Below, piece after piece: positions 9,112 through 58,676 of a stretch of 64,000 nt of DNA. Origin of the DNA: Desulfosarcina ovata subsp. ovata (GTDB taxonomy: Bacteria; Desulfobacterota; Desulfobacteria; Desulfobacterales; Desulfosarcinaceae). A model generated the notes under the pieces. That model did not search any database. It was not told the origin of the DNA and saw only the letters and a list, made by a program, of their open reading frames with translations. The stretch covers positions 682,001 through 746,000 of the forward strand of contig NZ_AP021879.1 of NCBI RefSeq assembly GCF_009689005.1, written 5' to 3'. Position numbers and translations under genes: made by a program. Every line of letters begins with the position of its first letter. Position 1 is the stretch's first letter.

Positions 9112-9750
9112 ATGAGAAAATTAGGCGTAGCTGTACTTATATCTATTTTTTTATTATGCCCTGTTGTTGCGTCCGCTAATTCGATCACTACTGACCAATG
9201 TTTAGGAACGGTGACCTTGGTTCTTTCGGTAAACGCTGCTGAAACTGAAAAGGTTGTTCTCGACGATGATTCTGTTCACAACTACTATACAGATTACGAA
9301 GCGTTTGCTAATGGAAGTGATACCCCCGTGGAAATCTTCTGCGTTGAAGATGAAGCCGCCCATTTGGGTCCGAAGATTGAATACTCTTTATACACACTGG
9401 CCTCTGATGATTATACCAACAAAGTGGTTGCTTGGATCGCGGAAGAGTATTGGGAGAGTGAACAGAAGACGTTAGCCCAATTGGCCATCTGGTGGTATTT
9501 AGAGGTAATCGAAAACGTTGATGATATGCTTTTGGTGGAAGACATATATGATATTTTAGCTGCTGCTGAATATGCTGCCCTTGATCCATCCAATGATTAT
9601 ACAAACAATTGGTTTCTGGCAACATTGGGCGGGGAACAGGACTACCTTATCCGCGCAACGGCCCCCGTTCCCGAACCCGCCACCATGCTGCTCCTGGGCA
9701 CCGGGCTCGTCGGCCTGGCCGGAGCCAGCCGGAAGAAATTCAAGAAATAG
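9112..9750 (+). CDS. PEP-CTERM sorting-domain exported protein
   Basis: 212 residues. It begins with a signal peptide (MRKLGVAVLISIFLLCPVVA then SAN) and ends with a PEP-CTERM sorting signal: VPEPATM, a hydrophobic helix LLLGTGLVGLAG and the basic tail SRKKFKK. Such proteins are exported, cleaved at the PEP motif by an exosortase and placed at the cell surface or in the biofilm matrix. The middle is acidic and rich in Tyr and Trp, with no catalytic motif I recognise. GGGAGG precedes the ATG. The 3' end of the gene is noticeably more GC-rich than the body, consistent with a conserved sorting signal attached to a variable domain. No exosortase gene is in the window. Confidence 0.9.
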   Translation: MRKLGVAVLISIFLLCPVVASANSITTDQCLGTVTLVLSVNAAETEKVVLDDDSVHNYYTDYEAFANGSDTPVEIFCVEDEAAHLGPKIEYSLYTLASDDYTNKVVAWIAEEYWESEQKTLAQLAIWWYLEVIENVDDMLLVEDIYDILAAAEYAALDPSNDYTNNWFLATLGGEQDYLIRATAPVPEPATMLLLGTGLVGLAGASRKKFKK

Positions 9751-9839: not shown

Positions 9840-11378
9840 CTACAAGGTCTGCGACGCCTTCAACGGATGCGCCTTCAGGTATTCCAGCCGATTCAACCCG
9901 TTGATATAGGCTTTGGCGCTGGCCGTGATGATGTCCGGATCGGAACCGCGGCCCAGGGCTACCAGGCCGTTTTCCCGCAGGCGCACGGTCACCTCGCCCT
10001 GGGCATCGGTACCGCCGGTCAGGGCACTGACCGTGAAGCGCAGCAGTTCGGCGCTGGCACCCGTCAACTGGGCAATCGTGTTGAAAGCCGAATCAATGGG
10101 ACCGTTGCCGTAGTTGGCGCCCTTTACGGAGCGGCCGTTGATGGCCAGTTTGACACTGGCCATGGGCATGACGGTGGTGCCGCAGGTCACATGCAGGTAT
10201 TCCAGGGAGAAGACTTCCGCCGTTCGCAGCACGCCTTCGGTAACCAGGGCTTCCAGGTCCTCGTCCATAACATGTTTTTTCTTGTCGGCCAAATTCTTGA
10301 ACTGCTTGAAGACGATCTTCAGTTCTTCTTCGGACAGATCGTATCCCAGCCCCTTCAGATGGGTGTGCAGGGCATGGCGGCCGGAATGCTTGCCCAGAAC
10401 CAACTGGTTGCGGCTCAGACCGATGGTTTCAGGTTTCATGATTTCGTAGGTCATGGGGTTCTTCAATACCCCGTCCTGATGAATGCCGGCCTCGTGGGCA
10501 AAAGCGTTGGCGCCCACGATGGCCTTATTGGGCTGGACCATGATACCGGTGATCATGCTCACCAGGCGGCTGGTCGGGTATAGGTGCGCCGTTTGAATGC
10601 CGGTTTCGAAGGGCATGAGATTCTGGCGCGTCTGCAGCGCCATGACCACCTCTTCCATGCTGGTGTTGCCGGCCCGCTCGCCGATGCCGTTGATGGTCAC
10701 CTCGGCCTGCCGGGCACCGACCTGGATGGCGGCGATCGTATTGGCCGTGGCCAGTCCCAGGTCGTTGTGGCAGTGAACGCTGAGTGTCGCCTTGTGCATA
10801 TTGGGCGTGTTGGCCATCACGTATTTCACCAGTTCGGCAAACTCGTCGGGAATGGCGTATCCCACCGTGTCGGGCAGGTTGACCGTGGTGGCGCCGGCCT
10901 CGATGGCCGCCCCGAACACCTGGCACAGGTAATCGCGGTCGCTACGCGAACCGTCCTCGGCCGAGAACTCCACGTTGTCGGTGAGGGATTTGGCGTATTT
11001 AACGGCATCAACGGCCGCGTTCAGCACTTCTTCACGGTTCATTTTGAGTTTGTATTTCAAGTGCAGGTCCGAGGTCGCGATGAACGTGTGGATGCGCGGT
11101 TTTGCAGCATGCCGGACGGCGCCCCATGCCAGGTCGATGTCTTGCTTGCTGGTTCGCGCCAGGCCGGCGATTTCACTGTTTTTTACTCGTTTGGCAATTT
11201 CCGAAACCGCTTCAAAGTCGCCTTCGGACGCTGCGGGAAAACCCGCTTCGATAATGTCCACACCCAGTTTTTCCAACTGCACGGCTAGCCGCATCTTCTC
11301 ATTGGTGTTCATGCTGGCGCCGGGGCTCTGCTCACCGTCCCGCAAAGTGGTGTCAAATATTTTTACTCGCTCGGGCAT
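9840..11378 (-). CDS. leuA: 2-isopropylmalate synthase
   Basis: 512 residues, full length. The HMGL-like TIM barrel starts with the [17 protein letters not shown] signature, where Arg and Asp act in catalysis, and contains the metal-binding [13 protein letters not shown] motif and GIGERAGN. The C-terminal about 130 residues form the LeuA regulatory dimerisation domain that binds leucine. It condenses 2-oxoisovalerate with acetyl-CoA, the first committed step of leucine synthesis. It is the last gene of the ilv-cimA-leuA run and is followed by a strong terminator at 9778-9818. leuB, leuC and leuD are not in the window. Confidence 0.95.
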
Positions 11379-11618: not shown

Positions 11619-13280
11619 TTATAGATTGCACGATACAGGAGCCGGCGGTTGCTCATTGCCGGCATGCACACCCGGCGATTCCTGATTCTTCCGGGCCGCT
11701 TCCTTGGCCAGTTTGAACTGAAAGCTGTCGGCCAGGGCCTGCCAACTGGCCTCGATGATATCTTCGGAAACGCCGATGGTACTCCAGATCTGATCCTGGT
11801 CGCGGGACTCGATGAAAACCCGCACCTTGGCCTCGGTTCCATCGCGACCGTCGACCACACGGACCTTGAAGTCGACCAGTTTCATGGTGTCCAGATCGGG
11901 ATAGAAGTTGCCCAGGGCTTTTCTCAGGGCATTGTCCAGGGCACTGACCGGACCCAGGCCTTCGGCGGCGGTGATCTCATGACTGTCGCCCACCGAGATT
12001 TTGATGGTGGCGTGGGCCGAACAGGGAAAATCCTTGTCTTTTTCAATGGTTACCCGAAACGACTCCAGGTCGAAGAGGGGTTTGAACTGCTCGGTGAATT
12101 TTTCCAGCATGATCTGAAACGATCCGTCGGCCACGTCGAACTGGTAGCCTTCCTCTTCCATCTGTTTGATGGCGGCAACAATGGCCTTGCTGTCGCAGCC
12201 GTTGGCACACAAGTCGACCCCCATCTCCTTGGCTTTGTACTCCACATTGCTTTTGCCGGCCAGGTCGGACATCAGGACCCGTCGCTGATTACCCACCTGT
12301 TCAGGATCCATGTGCTCGTAAGCGCGGGGCTCCTTGATGATGGCACTGACGTGAATGCCGCCCTTGTGCGCGAAGGCACTGCGGCCCACAAACGGACGAC
12401 TGTTGATGGGAACGATGTTGGCGGTCTCGCTGACATAGCGGGAGATACTTTTCAGGCCGCTGAGTTTTTCGGCAGGAATACAGGGCCGGTTCATTTTGGC
12501 ACACAGGATCGGAATAATTGTCGTCAGATCGGCGTTGCCGCAGCGCTCGCCATAACCATTGATGGTTCCGTGAACCATCACCGCACCGCAATTCACCGCT
12601 GAAATAGAGTTGGCCGCAGCCATGCCGCAGTCATTGTGGGAATGAATGCCCAGCTTCAGCGGACGCGATCCTCCGGTTTGCGGTTTCAACGCCTGTCTGA
12701 CCGATTGCATGATCGATTCCAGTTCATGGGGCAGGGTGCCGCCGTTGGTGTCACACAAAACAATAAAGTCGGCACCGGCGTCAAAGGCGGCCATCAACGT
12801 CTTCAGCGCGTAATCCGGATCGTCCTTGTACCCGTCGAAGAAATGCTCGGCATCGTAGATCACTTCCCGTCCACGCTCTTTCAGAAACGCCACACTGTCG
12901 GCAATCATGGCCAGGTTTTCCGTCAGGGTGTTTTCCATGACGGCCGTGACATGCAGGGGCCAGGTTTTGCCGAAAATGGCTGCGGCCGGTGTTTCGCTGT
13001 CAAGGATGGCATTCAGGTTGGGATCATCGGCTGCGCGGATACCCGGCTTGCGGGTAGAGCCGAAGGCGGTAATCCGGGCATTGGCAAACGTTTCCCGCTT
13101 GGCCAGTTCGAAAAAGCGCATATCCCGGGGATTGGATCCGGGCCAGCCGCCTTCGATGTACTGGATTCCCATTTCATCCAGACGTTTGGCGATTTTCAGC
13201 TTCTCGTCTGCGGTGAAGGTGATGTTCTCGCCCTGGGTGCCGTCTCTCAGTGTGGTGTCGTAGATAAGGATCGGTTGCAT
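11619..13280 (-). CDS. cimA: (R)-citramalate synthase
   Basis: 553 residues from the ATG at 13280, preceded by AGGAGA; an in-frame start at 13385 would overlap the end of ilvC and is rejected. The barrel begins ILIYDTTLRDGTQGENITF and has IEGGWPGSNPRD, HSHNDCGMAAANS (metal site) and NGYGERCGNADL. The DGTQGENI and GGWPGSNP variants separate CimA from LeuA and homocitrate synthase. The C-terminal part is a LeuA-type allosteric dimer domain. It condenses pyruvate with acetyl-CoA to citramalate, giving 2-oxobutyrate for isoleucine without threonine deaminase. Its place between ilvC and leuA supports this role. Confidence 0.93.
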   Translation of the reverse strand: MQPILIYDTTLRDGTQGENITFTADEKLKIAKRLDEMGIQYIEGGWPGSNPRDMRFFELAKRETFANARITAFGSTRKPGIRAADDPNLNAILDSETPAAAIFGKTWPLHVTAVMENTLTENLAMIADSVAFLKERGREVIYDAEHFFDGYKDDPDYALKTLMAAFDAGADFIVLCDTNGGTLPHELESIMQSVRQALKPQTGGSRPLKLGIHSHNDCGMAAANSISAVNCGAVMVHGTINGYGERCGNADLTTIIPILCAKMNRPCIPAEKLSGLKSISRYVSETANIVPINSRPFVGRSAFAHKGGIHVSAIIKEPRAYEHMDPEQVGNQRRVLMSDLAGKSNVEYKAKEMGVDLCANGCDSKAIVAAIKQMEEEGYQFDVADGSFQIMLEKFTEQFKPLFDLESFRVTIEKDKDFPCSAHATIKISVGDSHEITAAEGLGPVSALDNALRKALGNFYPDLDTMKLVDFKVRVVDGRDGTEAKVRVFIESRDQDQIWSTIGVSEDIIEASWQALADSFQFKLAKEAARKNQESPGVHAGNEQPPAPVSCNL

Positions 13281-13353
13281 GCTTAATCTTTCTCCTGACG
13301 CGATTTGTGGCGTCGGGGGCCGTCCCGGCAGGCGGGAATGGCCCCCGAACCCC

Positions 13354-14406
13354 TTATTTGCGCCGGTTTTCCGGTCGAAGGGCACGTACCGCCGCGCCGG
13401 CCTGCCACATCTCTGAATTGTGGATCACCGCCAGCTCTTCATTCAATTTCTCGCGGTAATCAGGGGCGCTGTTGCAATCCAGGGTGCGTCGGGTCTCTTC
13501 GCCGGTGATCACGCTTTTGTACAGCTGTTCAAACACCGGTGCCACGGCGTCGCGGAAGCGCGGCGCCCAGTCCAGGGCCCCCCGCTGGGCCGTGGTACTG
13601 CAGTTGGCGTACATCCAATCCATACCGTTCTGGGCCACGAGTCGGATCAGGCTTTGGGTCAGTTCCTCCACGGTTTCGTTGAAGGCCTCGCTGGGGCTGT
13701 GGCCGTTTTTGCGCAGAACGGTGTATTGGGCTTCCATGACACCGGCCAGGCAGCCCATGAGTACGCCGCGTTCACCGGTCAGATCGCTGTAGACCTCTTT
13801 TTCGAAGGTGGTCGGAAACAGGTAACCGGAACCGATAACGATGCCCAGGGCGATGGTGCGCGTGCGGGCACGGCCGGTAAAATCCTGATGGATGGCGAAA
13901 CTGGAGTTGATGCCGCTGCCGTCCAGAAAGTTGGTGCGCACGGTGGTGCCGGAGCCTTTGGGCGCCACCAGGATCACATCCACATTTTCCGGAGGAACGA
14001 TGCCGGTCTGCTCACGGTAGACGATTCCGAATCCGTGGGAAAAATAAAGCGCATCGCCTTCGTTCAGGCACTCCTTGATCGCCGGCCACATGGCCACCTG
14101 GCCGGCATCGGAAAGCAGATACTGGATCACGGTCGCCTTGCGGGCGGCTTCCTCCACGGGAAAGAGGGTTTTTCCGGGAACGAATCCGTCGGCCACGGCT
14201 TTATCCCAGGAAGCGGTGCCCTGGCGCTGCCCGATGATTACCTCGATGCCGTTGTCACGCATGTTCAGTGCCTGGCCCGGCCCCTGAACGCCGTATCCCA
14301 AAACGGCGACAACCTCTTTTTCCAACGCTTCGCGGGCCTGCTGGAGGGTAAATTCTTCGGATGTGACCACCTCTTCAACGGTTCCGCCAAAATCGATATT
14401 TGCCAT
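13354..14406 (-). CDS. ilvC: ketol-acid reductoisomerase
   Basis: 350 residues. The N-terminal Rossmann domain carries VAVLGYGVQGPGQALNMRD, a variant of the usual GYGSQGHAHA motif with Gln conserved. The cofactor-loop segment IIGQRQGTASWDKA follows, and the C-terminal helical domain contains GVLMGCLAGVMEAQYTVL-type metal-binding residues. The enzyme isomerises and reduces acetolactate or acetohydroxybutyrate. It is slightly longer than the usual 330-residue class I form and its GPGQALN motif differs from the typical GHAHA/LN sequence, resembling forms found in some deltaproteobacteria. It lies downstream of ilvN in the operon, with a 110-base gap. Confidence 0.92.
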   Translation of the reverse strand: MANIDFGGTVEEVVTSEEFTLQQAREALEKEVVAVLGYGVQGPGQALNMRDNGIEVIIGQRQGTASWDKAVADGFVPGKTLFPVEEAARKATVIQYLLSDAGQVAMWPAIKECLNEGDALYFSHGFGIVYREQTGIVPPENVDVILVAPKGSGTTVRTNFLDGSGINSSFAIHQDFTGRARTRTIALGIVIGSGYLFPTTFEKEVYSDLTGERGVLMGCLAGVMEAQYTVLRKNGHSPSEAFNETVEELTQSLIRLVAQNGMDWMYANCSTTAQRGALDWAPRFRDAVAPVFEQLYKSVITGEETRRTLDCNSAPDYREKLNEELAVIHNSEMWQAGAAVRALRPENRRK

Positions 14407-14516: not shown

Positions 14517-15005
14517 TCAGTGGGGTTCCCTGAACAGGGCGATGGTACCCGTGCGGGCAATTTTTTTAATGCCCATGGGCTTGAGCAGGTTCACCAGTGC
14601 TTTCATTTTCTCAACCGATCCGGTGGCCTCGATGATGTAATACTCCACCCCGACATCGACGACTTTGCATCTGAAAATATCAACGATCCGCAGGATTTCG
14701 TCGCGGTTTTCCGGTTTGGCCCGCACACAGATCAGTGCCATTTCCCGCTGAACCGATCCGGACCCGGTAAGGTCCCTCAGCTTGATCACATTGATGAGTT
14801 TTCGAAGCTGTTTTTCGATCTGTTCAACCAGCGGTTCATTGGCTTTGGTAACAATCGTTATCCGGGAAACCTTGGGATCGATGGTTTCAGCCACGCAAAG
14901 GCTTTCAATATTGAATCCACGGCCGCTGAACAATCCCACGATGCGCGAAAGCACCCCGGGTTCGTTGTCCACCAGCATGGTTAAAATATGCTTCTCTTCA
15001 GTCAT
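14517..15005 (-). CDS. ilvN: acetolactate synthase small subunit
   Basis: 162 residues from the ATG at 15005, which has AAGGACGG 7 bases upstream; an in-frame start at 15023 adds six residues. The ACT domain is plain: HILTMLVDNEPGVLSRIVGL then FSGRGFNIESL, with the effector-binding Asn and Gly. A C-terminal regulatory domain (residues 80-160) completes the usual IlvH-type length. It binds valine and activates and feedback-controls the catalytic subunit encoded immediately upstream by ilvB (41 bases away). Confidence 0.94.
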   Translation of the reverse strand: MTEEKHILTMLVDNEPGVLSRIVGLFSGRGFNIESLCVAETIDPKVSRITIVTKANEPLVEQIEKQLRKLINVIKLRDLTGSGSVQREMALICVRAKPENRDEILRIVDIFRCKVVDVGVEYYIIEATGSVEKMKALVNLLKPMGIKKIARTGTIALFREPH

Positions 15006-15046
15006 TGTCCGTCCTTTTATCAAAACGTAAAGCGCCGCGAAGGCGG

Positions 15047-16732
15047 TTACACCAGCAGCATTTCAGTAATCGGGGCGCCGGCCGGGACCATGGGATAGAC
15101 GCACTCCTCCCTGGATACCCTGAAATCCATAATCACCGGGCCGGGCGTCTCAAGCCCCTGGCGCAATACAGCTTCAACCTCGTCCGGACGGGTGGCTTTG
15201 AAACCGACGGCGCCGTAGGCCTCGGCCAGCTTGACGAAGTCAGGCGCGTGTTCCAGCCCCGTACAGGCGTATCGCTTGTCGTAGAACAACTCCTGCCACT
15301 GACGGACCATACCCAGGTAGCAGTTGTTGAGGATGACCACCTTGACCGGCAGTTTGTACTGCATGGCCGTGGCCATCTCCTGAATGTTCATCTGGATGCT
15401 GCCGTCGCCGGCCACATCCACCACCAGGGCGTCGGGAAAGGCCACCTGCGCACCGATGGCGGCGGGCAGCCCGAAACCCATGGTGCCCAGTCCGCCGGAG
15501 GTGACAAATTGCCTGGGACGGTCGAAATGGTAGTACTGGGCCGTCCACATCTGGTTCTGGCCCACCTCCGTGGTGATGATCGCCTCACCATGGGTCAGTT
15601 CGTAAAGCTTTTCCACCACAAACTGCGGCTTGATTTCATCTTCCTGGGCGTAGGCCAGTTTGTACTGCTGCTTCCACGTCTCGACTTTCTCCATCCATGG
15701 ACGCCGCCGGGCTTTCATCGCTTCGAGGTCCTCGTCTTCCAGGAGCGTGTTGAGAATTTCGAGGCAGCTCTTGCAATCTCCCACTACCGGCACGCTGACC
15801 GGGACATTCTTGCGAATGGAGGTCGGGTCGATATCGATATGCACGATTTTGGCCTGGGACGCAAAACAGTCGGTCTTGCCGGTGACCCGATCGTCGAAGC
15901 GAACCCCGATGCCGATGAGCAGGTCGCACTCTCCGCTGCTCATGTTCGCCCGGTAGGTGCCGTGCATACCGATCATCCCCAGGGAAAGGGGATCGGTGCC
16001 CGGAAAGGCGCCCAGCCCCATGAGCGACATGGTCACTGGAATTTCGGTACTGCGCGCCAGTCGGGTCAGCTCGTCGGCACCCTTGGACAGCAGTACTCCG
16101 CCGCCGGCGAAAATCAACGGGCGTTTTGAAGATTTGATCAGGTCCACCACCTTTTGCAACTGCTTGGCATTGGGCTTGTAAGTGGGGTTGTATGATTTGA
16201 GGCGCACCTTCTGATTGGGTTTATAGTTGGTAACGCCCTGCTGTACGTTTTTTGGAATATCCACCAGCACCGGTCCAGGCCGCCCCGAACGGGCGATGTG
16301 AAACGCCTCCTTGAGTATCCGCGGCAGATCTTCGACCGAGGGGACCAGGTAGTTGTGTTTGGTGCAGGGGCGGGTGATGCCGACGATATCGACCTCTTGG
16401 AAGGCGTCGTTTCCGATCAGGTGCGTCGGTACCTGGCCGCAGATAATTACCAGCGGAATGGAATCCATGTAGGCGGTGGCAATACCGGTGACGGCATTGG
16501 TGGCCCCCGGTCCGGAGGTGACGATGCAGACGCCGACCTTTCCAGAGACCCGGGCATACCCGTCGGCCGCATGGACCGCAGCCTGCTCGTGGCGCACCAG
16601 GTAGTGGTGCATATCGGTTTTTACGACGTTATCGTGAATATCGATGGTGGCGCCGCCGGGAAACCCGAAAATGGAGTCCACGCCTTCTTCCTTCAGGACC
16701 TCCATCAGTATCTGCGCTCCGGTGAGTTTCAT
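15047..16732 (-). CDS. ilvB: acetolactate synthase large (catalytic) subunit
   Basis: 561 residues, full length. It shows the three-domain ThDP-enzyme layout: an N-terminal domain with [13 protein letters not shown] and the catalytic Glu in [15 protein letters not shown], a central FAD-binding domain ([15 protein letters not shown]), and a C-terminal ThDP domain with [16 protein letters not shown]...ILNN, the GDG-x26-N metal/ThDP motif. It condenses two pyruvate to acetolactate, or pyruvate with 2-oxobutyrate to acetohydroxybutyrate, for Val/Leu and Ile. It lies between ilvD (79 bases upstream) and ilvN. Confidence 0.95.
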
Positions 16733-16811: not shown

Positions 16812-18479
16812 TTATTTCACCACCGCTCCCTGGCTGGCCGAGGAGACCTGCCGGGCATAGCGCGCCATGTAACCGGATTGGATCTTCGGTTCCGGTGCCT
16901 GCCACGCGCCCAGACGACGTTCGATCTCCTCCTCGGCCACCTTCAGGGTGACCGTTTTACCGGGGATATCGATGGCAATCCGGTCACCCTCGTTGACGAT
17001 GGCGATGGGCCCGCCCTGGGCGGCCTCGGGCGAGATGTGGCCGATGGCCGCTCCCCGGGACCCCCCTGAGAAACGCCCGTCGGTAATCAGGGCCACGGAA
17101 TCGTCCAGGCCCATGCCGGCAATGGCCGAGGTGGGGGTGAGCATTTCACGCATGCCCGGCCCGCCCATAGGGCCTTCGTAGCGGACGACGATGACATCCC
17201 CTTTGTTGATGCGTCCTTCCATAATGGCTTCGCTGGCGGCATCCTCGGAATCGAATACCCGCGCCGGGCCCTCGTGGCACAGCATCTCGTCGAGCACCGC
17301 CGACTGCTTGACCACACAACCGTCCGGCGCGAGGTTGCCGTAGAGTACGGCCAGGCCGCCCTTTCGATGGTAAGGGCGGTCAAGGGGCCGGATCACTTCC
17401 GGGTCGAGGGTCGTCGTCCCTTCTGTGTTTTCGGCAACACTCTTGCCGGTCGCGGTCATGCAGCCGGTATGGATCAGTCCGGCGTCCGACAGCTCCTTGA
17501 TCACGGCGGGGATGCCACCGGCCCGGTTGAGGTCCTGGATGTGGTGGGTCCCACCAGGGCTCAAGGAACAGATGTGCGGGGTCTTTTCACTGATCTGATT
17601 GATCATTGCAAGGTCCAGGGAAACACCGGCCTCATTGGCGATGGCCGGCAGATGCAGAACCGTATTGGTCGAGCAGCCCAACGCCATGTCCACGGTCAGG
17701 GCATTTTCAAACGCATCGGGGGTCATGATGGAACGGGCGGTGATCTGCCGCTGCCAAAGATCCATGATCTGCATTCCGGCCTGTTTGGCCAGGCGTACCC
17801 TGGCGGAGTAAACCGCCGGAATGGTGCCGTTGCCCGGTAGCCCCATGCCGATCACCTCGGTCAGGCAGTTCATGGAGTTGGCCGTGAACATGCCTGCACA
17901 GGAACCGCAGGTGGGGCAGGCGGCGTCTTCGAAAGCGGTCAGCTGTTCGGTACTCATTTTTCCGGCTTTTACGGCGCCGACCGCCTCAAAAATAGTAATC
18001 AGATCGATGCGGCGTCCCGGAATCTCCGGGTGTTCACCGGCCAGCATGGGGCCACCGCTGACGAAAATTGCCGGCAGATCCAGGCGGGCGGCCGCCATCA
18101 GCATGCCGGGAACGATTTTATCGCAGTTGGGAATCAAGACCAGGGCATCCAAGGCATGACCCGTGGCCATCACCTCGATGGAGTCGGCGATGAGTTCGCG
18201 GCTGGCCAGGGAATACTTCATGCCCATGTGATTCATGGCAATGCCGTCGCATACGCCGATGGTGCCGAATTCCACCGGTGTGCCACCGGCCATATAGATT
18301 CCGGCCTTGACCGCCTCGGCGATGGTGTTCAGGTGAACATGTCCGGGGATGGCGGTATTCACGGCATTGGCGATACCAATCAGCGGGCGCTTGATTTCTT
18401 CGTCGGTATACCCGATGGCCTTGAAAAGGGCCCGGTGCGGTGCCCGTTCGATTCCCTGTTTGGCTGCGTTGCTTTTCAT
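16812..18479 (-). CDS. ilvD: dihydroxy-acid dehydratase
   Basis: 555 residues, full length. The Fe-S cluster cysteines are visible in [11 protein letters not shown] and in [20 protein letters not shown], and [20 protein letters not shown] is the conserved C-terminal signature. It dehydrates dihydroxyisovalerate and dihydroxymethylvalerate in valine and isoleucine synthesis. It is the first enzyme gene of the ilv run. Its start lies 31 bases after the T-run of a terminator and downstream of a branched-chain-residue-rich leader peptide, so its expression is very likely controlled by attenuation. Confidence 0.95.
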
Positions 18480-18509: not shown

Positions 18510-18550
18510 AAAAAAAAATCCGTTATCGCCTCGGGGGGATAACGGATTTT
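18510..18550 (-). terminator. intrinsic terminator (attenuator) in the ilvD leader
   Basis: On the minus strand AAAATCCGTTATC (18550-18538) pairs perfectly over 13 bp with GATAACGGATTTT (18527-18515), with a 10-base loop. The stem is followed by an unbroken T run to 18510. It lies between the leader peptide and ilvD with no gene end immediately upstream, so it is a conditional terminator, not an end-of-operon one. Confidence 0.85.
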
Positions 18551-18572
18551 ATATTTTCCTGTTTTGGCTGTT

Positions 18573-18704
18573 TCAGGCCATTATCGCCCCGGTCTCCTCG
18601 TCGTGGATAAGTACACCCACTACGAGGATAAGAATGAGACCAATAATGCTAAGAAGAACGAGACGATAATTCATGGATTTCACATACCAGTTAATTTTGG
18701 TCAT
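18573..18704 (-). CDS. branched-chain leader peptide of the ilv operon
   Basis: A 43-codon frame (or 33 codons from the second ATG at 18674) ends 22 bases before the attenuator stem. Residues 15-33 read LVLLSIIGLILILVVGVLI: 16 of 19 are Leu, Ile or Val, the three products of the operon downstream. This is the design of ilv leader peptides in enterobacteria, where ribosome stalling on these codons relieves termination. Neither ATG has a strong ribosome site; AGGG touches the first, and a weak promoter match overlaps it, so the second ATG may be the real start. A small membrane protein is an alternative reading, but the RNA structures around it argue for a leader. Confidence 0.8.
   Translation of the reverse strand: MTKINWYVKSMNYRLVLLSIIGLILILVVGVLIHDEETGAIMA
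18578..18627 (-). promoter_or_regulatory. pause hairpin and antiterminator segment of the ilv attenuator
   Basis: Inside the leader frame CCTCGTAGTGG (18627-18617) pairs with CCACGACGAGG (18606-18596), 10 of 11 pairs, giving the early hairpin. GGTCT and CATTAT further 5' can extend it by pairing with AGACC and ATAATG. The segment GGGGCGATAATGG (18590-18578) can instead pair with CCGTTATCCCCCC (18545-18533) over 13 positions with one mismatch and one G-U; that second segment is the 5' arm and loop of the terminator. The two foldings exclude each other, as needed for attenuation. Confidence 0.7.
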
Positions 18705-18732
18705 CCCTAACAGTCTGTTTCTTTTAAGTCAA
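18704..18732 (-). promoter_or_regulatory. possible promoter of the ilv operon
   Basis: TTGACT (18732-18727) is followed after 17 bases by TAGGGA (18709-18704), a poor -10 match. If used, transcription begins near 18697 and the leader peptide must start at the second ATG (18674). The placement is plausible but the -10 box is weak. Confidence 0.3.
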
Positions 18733-32828: not shown

Positions 32829-32901
32829 GGGCCCATAGCTCAGCTGGCAGAGCCACCGGCTCATAACCGGTCGGTCCCTGGTTCGATCCCAGGTGGGCCC
32901 A
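32829..32901 (+). tRNA. tRNA with CAU anticodon (elongator Met or lysidine Ile2)
   Basis: 73 bases with a perfect 7-bp acceptor stem (GGGCCCA/TGGGCCC), D arm GCTC..GAGC, anticodon arm ACCGG-CTCATAA-CCGGT and T arm CCTGG-TTCGATC-CCAGG. The anticodon is CAT. G1 pairs with C72 and the anticodon stem lacks the three G-C pairs of initiators, so it is not tRNA-fMet. CCA is not encoded. Choosing between elongator Met and Ile2 would need identity-element comparison. Confidence 0.95.
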
Positions 32902-34930: not shown

Positions 34931-35317
<387 letters not shown>

Positions 35318-58589: not shown

Positions 58590-58676
58590 GCCGAAGTGGC
58601 GGAATTGGTAGACGCGCTAGGTTCAGGGTCTAGTTGGGGTTCCCCAGTGGGAGTTCGAGTCTCCCCTTCGGCACCA
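58590..58676 (+). tRNA. tRNA-Leu (CAG anticodon)
   Basis: 87 bases including encoded CCA. The acceptor stem is GCCGAAG/CTTCGGC, the D arm GGCGGAATTGGTAGACGC fits class II tRNAs, the anticodon arm is CTAGG-TTCAGGG-TCTAG, the variable arm is TTGGGGTTCCCCAGT-like and the T loop is TTCGAGT. The 3' end is a likely integration site for the element downstream. Confidence 0.96.

Follow-up and report, generated by a model that had tools for sequence, protein, structure and literature searches.

A probable ribosome-mediated attenuator of the ilvDBNC-cimA-leuA operon in Desulfosarcina ovata and a family of similar leaders in Desulfobacterota

Among the systems closest to the element considered here are the attenuators of the enterobacterial ilvGMEDA, ilvBN and leuABCD operons, which we compare by description (with the Leu leader RF00512 as PMC3766115 names it). 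They share with our locus a leader peptide rich in Leu, Ile and Val, mutually exclusive 1:2, 2:3 and 3:4 pairings, and a terminator placed before biosynthetic genes. In the relevant passages of the 2013 survey (PMC3766115) the four amino-acid attenuator motifs that Rfam had at that date are suggested to be gamma-proteobacterial in origin, with few transfers; coverage of the delta group there consists of Desulfovibrionales only, and earlier T-box reports in Geobacter are noted. The motifs presented in passages of PMC11109978, livJ of Streptomyces and yjbM and nifV of Geobacter, are all different from this element. Among the papers listed by our literature searches, titles and abstract openings name no branched-chain attenuator for deltaproteobacteria or Desulfobacterota, with overlapping predictions perhaps contained in Vitreschak 2004 and Lopatovskaya 2010, where an earlier report would be likeliest, and the passages of PMC545781 (metal-reducing delta-proteobacteria) and PMC2965389 that match our search terms mention no such attenuator.

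We analysed a window of 64,000 nucleotides from Desulfosarcina ovata subsp. ovata, the genome of which is one 7.63-Mb contig. An earlier note made from the letters alone had taken the host for a deltaproteobacterium, which holds in the old sense of the name: the family mate Desulfatitalea alkaliphila (L021, L120) is placed by NCBI in the Desulfosarcinaceae, Desulfobacterales. The gene order ilvD-ilvB-ilvN-ilvC-cimA-leuA that it had read in the window is borne out by NCBIfam equivalog models, all above cut-off. The upstream neighbour on the opposite strand is YqgE/AlgH-like, each of the seven NCBIfam models listed for it falling below its curated cut-off. Leader and operon are laid out as follows, in window positions.

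18705..18732, minus strand: promoter-like element read from the sequence, -35-like TTGACT (18732-18727), 16 nt, TTAGGG (18710-18705)
18573..18674, minus strand: leader ORF MNYRLVLLSIIGLILILVVGVLIHDEETGAIMA followed by its stop, 33 codons; start and frame common to the ten genus leaders compared
18660..18670, minus strand: arm 1 ATTATCGTCTC, anti-antiterminator with arm 2, 11 contiguous pairs
18596..18627, minus strand: internal pause-type hairpin P, inside the leader frame, -20.8 kcal/mol
18578..18590, minus strand: arm 2 GGGGCGATAATGG, the final leader codons; partner is arm 3 (antiterminator) or arm 1
18533..18550, minus strand: arm 3, of which 18545-18533 pairs with arm 2 and 18550-18538 with arm 4
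18510..18527, minus strand: arm 4 (18527-18515) and T run (18518-18510), intrinsic terminator 3:4, 13 uninterrupted pairs
16812..18479, minus strand: ilvD, dihydroxy-acid dehydratase, first gene of the controlled operon (TIGR00110 above cut-off)
15047..16732, minus strand: ilvB, acetolactate synthase large subunit (TIGR00118 above cut-off)
14517..15023, minus strand: ilvN, acetolactate synthase small subunit (TIGR00119 above cut-off)
13354..14406, minus strand: ilvC, ketol-acid reductoisomerase (TIGR00465 above cut-off)
11619..13385, minus strand: cimA, citramalate synthase, N-terminal start uncertain (TIGR00977 above cut-off, match from residue 39)
9840..11378, minus strand: leuA, 2-isopropylmalate synthase (TIGR00973 above cut-off)

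Elsewhere in the window, just past leuA, an ORF on the plus strand (9112-9750) has a signal-like N-terminus and a C-terminal tail VPEPATMLLLGTGLVGLAGASRKKFKK, which we take to be of the PEP-CTERM type. A class A RNase P RNA (34936-35314) and two tRNA genes (32829-32901 and 58590-58673) also lie on the plus strand.

Most of the leader anatomy given in the earlier note stands on recounting. There are 16 Leu, Ile or Val among the 19 residues of LVLLSIIGLILILVVGVLI, the frame ends at TGA 18575-18573, 22 bases before the stem, and the terminator pairs 18550-18538 with 18527-18515 without interruption, with nine T at 18518-18510. The antiterminator described as 13 positions does join 18590-18578 to 18545-18533, with 12 of the 13 paired and a C-C mismatch at 18586/18537. 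Likewise the pause hairpin inside the frame (18627-18596) is real, and it has no overlap with arm 2, so that we reject it as a direct competitor of that arm; the actual competitor of arm 2 (18590-18580) is the early arm 1 (18670-18660), which the note had missed. A longer frame, open from ATG 18704 and in frame with ATG 18674, was also rejected, as its start directly adjoins the promoter-like TTAGGG and the window leader is the only one in alignment A2 with an ATG there. The start at ATG 18674, upstream of which the window has no clear Shine-Dalgarno sequence, and its 33-residue frame are common to ten of the twelve leaders of the genus, the ones compared. In these ten (L005 and L007 being left out of the codon test) the synonymous share among single-base codon differences is 0.40 against 0.24 expected, and selection on the leader coding frame is visible in this comparison.

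From these features we consider it very probable that the leader is a ribosome-mediated transcription attenuator which senses charged Leu-, Ile- and Val-tRNA ahead of ilvDBNC-cimA-leuA. RNA polymerase would begin upstream of the leader and a ribosome would translate the leader frame. Were any one of the tRNAs short of its amino acid, the ribosome would stall in the Leu/Ile/Val run (18662-18606), at or past arm 1 and ahead of arm 2; arm 1 would be covered or held behind the ribosome, 2:3 would pair before arm 4 exists, no terminator would form and the operon would be transcribed. With all three tRNAs plentiful, the ribosome at the stop codon would cover arm 2, 3:4 would pair and transcription would end at the T run. 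In an untranslated leader 1:2 would pair around hairpin P and favour the terminator. That the ribosome stalls, how the RNA folds in time, that transcription terminates in vivo and that P acts as a pause are what we infer from this layout. The classical attenuator proposed in the earlier note gains support from the leader frame in relatives, from compensatory changes and from TTGAC upstream, which we take in turn.

The ilvD protein is present in 28 of the 30 genomes of the family, and frame, arms and terminator all accompany 26 of the 27 ilvD orthologues with readable upstream DNA; the element is absent at L027 (ilvD 64% identical, partial) and L028 (41%, partial) and at the second ilvD paralogues L029 and L030. 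A wider set of 153 loci was made up of 26 from the family ilvD search, 12 from an ilvD search of named genomes that also had a model match, and 118 model matches chosen for spread over families, less three duplicates (L235, L239, L243). In this set, where loci were mostly selected by a model favouring the core and related genomes are not independent, a leader frame rich in Leu, Ile and Val (at least 9 of 14 residues) is found at 149 of 153 loci, or 149 of 156 if L108, L109 and L111, model matches excluded before the count as chance matches with no rich leader, are included. Dinucleotide shuffles of the leaders give such a frame in 8 of 760. Three of the four loci below the threshold have 8 of 14, and the fourth (L252), a chance match, is still counted in the 153; two weak model matches, L278 and L279, have no rich leader either. 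The next gene, named by best match to the window proteins, is ilvD at 97 loci, ilvB at 31, cimA at 18, leuA at 4 and unidentified at 3. Arms 2 and 3 (GATAATGG and CCGTTATC) are near-invariant across the loci, and a stop codon lies at -1, +2 or +10 relative to arm 2 GATAATGG in 144 of the 153.

Both competing helices covary. The figures are read with caution, the alignments being anchored on model matches, the script that placed arm 3 having demanded some complementarity and the sequences being related, but in 150 sequences (alignment A3, 150 of 152, with L017 and L253 dropped from it and L252 from the structure set) 93.0% of cells in antiterminator 2:3 and 96.0% in terminator 3:4 are paired. 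Both-side changes occur in 8 of the 13 antiterminator pairs (63 cells against 10.8 shuffled) and in 9 of the 15 terminator pairs (113 against 33.5), and pairing falls to 21%-59% when either helix is slid by 1-3 columns. Compensatory changes are hence present in both stems: a covarying intrinsic terminator lies between the leader frame and the first gene, and the antiterminator shares an arm with it.

Strong RNA structure and a conserved core sequence would also suit a metabolite riboswitch, a protein-binding element or a T-box in control of the terminator, the frame being incidental. We regard this as extremely improbable, since no Rfam 15 family reaches its gathering score at the leader in the window or in 20 related loci, the frame recurs in nearly all the loci and its codons track the products of the operon. 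In the window and the 20 related loci the Leu leader RF00512, the other amino-acid leaders and the T-box RF00230 lie below the gathering threshold, and matches at relaxed threshold (sroB and others) were rejected as far under gathering scores.

The third pairing, between arms 1 and 2, calls for closer comparison. In the window it comprises 11 contiguous pairs (-12.2 kcal/mol), and a wider scan gives a best duplex of -16.3 (p 0.038 against synonymous recoding). Over 151 leaders the early leader binds its own arm 2 with a mean of -12.9 kcal/mol, against -8.5 for shuffles and -11.0 for the arm 2 of other leaders. When the early codons are recoded synonymously the mean changes from -12.91 to -9.76, the native value being lower in 132 of 148 leaders (mean z -1.38). 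This supports 1:2 pairing as a family trait, more weakly so in the window, where the anti-antiterminator that competes with 2:3 across the family appears weak at equilibrium. Hairpin P has a mean z of -3.12 over 152 leaders, 118 of them below -1.5.

Folding of the RNA points the same way in part. The 223-nt window leader folds 4 sd better than shuffles, and its centroid contains the terminator together with 1:2 around hairpin P, while the minimum-energy fold is without them. We also folded nascent transcripts of 149 leaders, cut after arm 3 and with the ribosome footprint masked, a scheme that ignores kinetics. The predicted probability of 2:3 has a mean of 0.93 with the ribosome on the Leu/Ile/Val run (above 0.7 at the best codon in 138 of 149), 0.00 with the ribosome at the stop and 0.65 in ribosome-free RNA, where it is below 0.3 in only 42 of 149 leaders and reaches 0.99 in that of the window. 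As ribosome-free RNA favours 2:3, an untranslated leader would terminate only if 1:2 assisted kinetically. The folding model is blind to the residue, stalls at other codons in the interval from about -84 to -18 nt relative to arm 2 being equivalent, and so explains where a stall must lie and not which residue causes it.

These results bear on a variant in which attenuation works without arm 1, the ribosome only masking or freeing arm 2, P acting as the pause and 1:2 arising as a by-product of the early codons. That P is the strongest among the hairpins computed and clear of arm 2, that the ribosome-free window fold favours 2:3 and that 1:2 in the window surpasses synonymous recoding by a modest margin only all agree with it; the excess over recoding in most leaders does not, nor does the preference for the own arm 2 over the mean of the others in 76% of 151 leaders. 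We judge this variant possible but rather unlikely.

Of 150 loci, 144 have an exact TTGAC somewhere 100-200 nt 5' of arm 2 GATAATGG, whereas shuffles give 18, so that transcription most likely begins before the leader, contrary to the downstream start that the earlier note had named as an objection. TTGACA with one mismatch gives a weaker contrast (147 of 150 loci against 786 of 1500 shuffles), its matches peaking 140-154 nt upstream of arm 2. In the window leader TTAGGG may serve as the -10 element. A consensus scan of that leader returned no promoter and no terminator, the former because its rule for the second hexamer excludes TTAGGG, the latter because it allowed loops of 3-8 and the loop of the leader terminator is 10.

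The same scan, the sole search made for it, shows no second promoter between the terminator and ilvD, such as would be expected if the frame encoded a functional small membrane protein of one hydrophobic helix, with the hairpin as its terminator and ilvD under a promoter of its own. The Leu/Ile/Val run could indeed be a transmembrane helix, and selection on the coding frame suits such a protein; yet the final codons lie within arm 2, the stop codons of relatives fall in two frames, arm 2 covaries with arm 3 in a way superfluous for a plain terminator, and Leu, Ile and Val vary with the downstream pathway. We therefore hold this explanation to be very unlikely.

The variation in leader codons follows the operon. 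Citramalate synthase feeds isoleucine synthesis, and an isoleucine leader is thus expected before a lone cimA. The Ile share of leader Leu/Ile/Val over the whole peptide is 0.50-0.89 in seven leaders of cimA operons that lack leuA and ilv genes and 0.17-0.50 in nine of operons with leuA (rank test p 0.0006), and in the best 20-residue stretch 0.58-0.92 against 0.13-0.53 (p 0.0005), several of the seven being related and three of them (L280, L281, L283) having only 7, 9 and 6 Leu, Ile or Val of 14. Left out of this comparison were L277 (operon unreadable), L107 (a 2.4-kb gap past cimA) and L250, where cimA stands alone behind an Ile-rich leader. Operon content rests on NCBIfam for L090 (cimA-leuC-leuD-leuB, leuD just under cut-off) and L113 (cimA-leuA-leuC-leuD-leuB), the leuC, leuD and leuB genes of the remaining operons being named by likeness to these two.

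Eight genomes carry two switches, and in five of five that could be contrasted the leader of the cimA operon exceeds its partner in Ile share and falls short of it in Val share; the five are G462 and G504 (of one genus), G293, G047 and G437, the count excluding G074 and G041, which are not informative for the Ile/Val contrast, and G108, with a lone ilvB in place of cimA. In G293 the leader of cimA-leuA-leuCDB has no Val codons and that of ilvBNC has six. The window leader is balanced in its best stretch (5 Ile, 7 Leu, 4 Val) and precedes the complete ilv-cimA-leuA set. On this comparison of sequences leader codons match operon products, Ile-rich before cimA without leuA or ilv genes and mixed with leuA. 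The loci are in effect natural replicates of the textbook idea that the codons of a leader reflect what its pathway makes, also where two operons within a single genome are compared. Separately, the lone ilvB of G108 has a near-pure isoleucine leader (L336; 9 Ile, 1 Leu, 1 Val), unlike the isoleucine-poor leader of the ilvD-ilvBNC-leuA operon of that genome, and this ilvB could encode an additional acetohydroxyacid synthase that serves isoleucine synthesis.

Model R1, a covariance model trained on the core in 25 family sequences with the terminator as sole structure, matches 214 of the 242 order genomes at E <= 0.01, the training family supplying 11 of these. At E <= 0.001 it matches 27 of 297 genomes sampled across the phylum: 10 belong to the window's order or are its genome, a further 14 show a rich leader in front of cimA, leuA or ilvB, and 3 are chance matches. 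Two R1 matches per genome do not amount to two switches: the terminator is palindromic, and matches to it on the opposite strand inflate the count per genome. Model R2, broader and built from 150 sequences of which many come from the searched genomes, matches 36 of the 297 phylum genomes and, in the class, 256 of 291 (partly training genomes), with 188 of 200 among the well-assembled; all class genomes among those listed belong to the window's order. By R2 the element is absent from 12 of the 200 well-assembled class genomes and from most of the genomes sampled elsewhere in the phylum. As 4 of 30 genomes outside the phylum match R2 at E <= 0.001 (best 5.9e-5), matches weaker than about 1e-5 need the leader as added support; among the 256 class matches three (G188, G072, G061) have a best E above 1e-5.

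The window genome itself holds a true second copy (L061, 5551495-5551577 of the genome, minus strand) with its own leader before a LeuA-family gene; its further matches L064 (E 0.24) and L065 (E 0.43) were kept out of the counts. The copy at L061 has diverged and has the leader MDFNFISILIVLLSAEVRLDTSRRRGS. Its arm-2 variant GGGGCTCTTAGTGG also occurs in L127, L128 and L130, 5' of ilvD. The LeuA-family protein downstream of L061 has 491 residues and reaches the cut-off of none of the 20 NCBIfam models listed for it.

We lean slightly towards the view that Desulfobacterota inherited a single ancestral core, which was relocated or copied between cimA, leuA, ilvB and ilvD operons, the core staying near-fixed while the codons were retuned to the product. 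If so, Ile would be expected before a lone cimA, Ile and Leu without Val before cimA-leuA-leuCDB, and Val-rich leaders before ilvBNC, and one genome would have several switches that share the core and differ in specificity. That arms 2 and 3 hardly vary would be explained by their several pairings and the stop codons, or by an unknown second role. One recognisable attenuator family, absent from Rfam, spans most sampled genomes of a large order related to sulfate reducers and occurs in scattered families in the rest of the phylum; a covariance model of practical use can be drawn from it, and it predicts control of cimA-based isoleucine synthesis.

Set beside known systems, the element resembles several by description. 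The Veillonella ilvD motif WRC-18-2, in the passages of PMC8632094 that present it, is likewise an RNA element 5' of ilvD, in some cases with a terminator, but unlike the Desulfobacterota element it is a weak riboswitch candidate of 73 members confined to Veillonella. The leucine-rich attenuator peptide of Staphylococcus aureus (PMC5794164) likewise places branched-chain synthesis under leader-peptide control, in Firmicutes. The attenuator of Corynebacterium ilvBNC, the ilvB-II motif of PMC10272879, has in the parts of that paper concerned a branched-chain-rich upstream frame with terminator and antiterminator before ilvB; its 103 representatives come from Corynebacterium only, whereas the Desulfobacterota family has several targets and extends over a whole order. 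As far as could be seen, neither the family nor its host range nor such regular retuning of codons has yet been described. Unlike the enterobacterial attenuators, the leaders of Desulfobacterota have their stop codon in or next to arm 2 and, between arms 1 and 2, hairpin P as a structure of its own, and the element, which has no Rfam match, precedes ilvD, ilvB, cimA or leuA. As far as our searches reach, it appears to be an undescribed sequence family of ribosome-mediated attenuators, in which a textbook mechanism is met in a new lineage.
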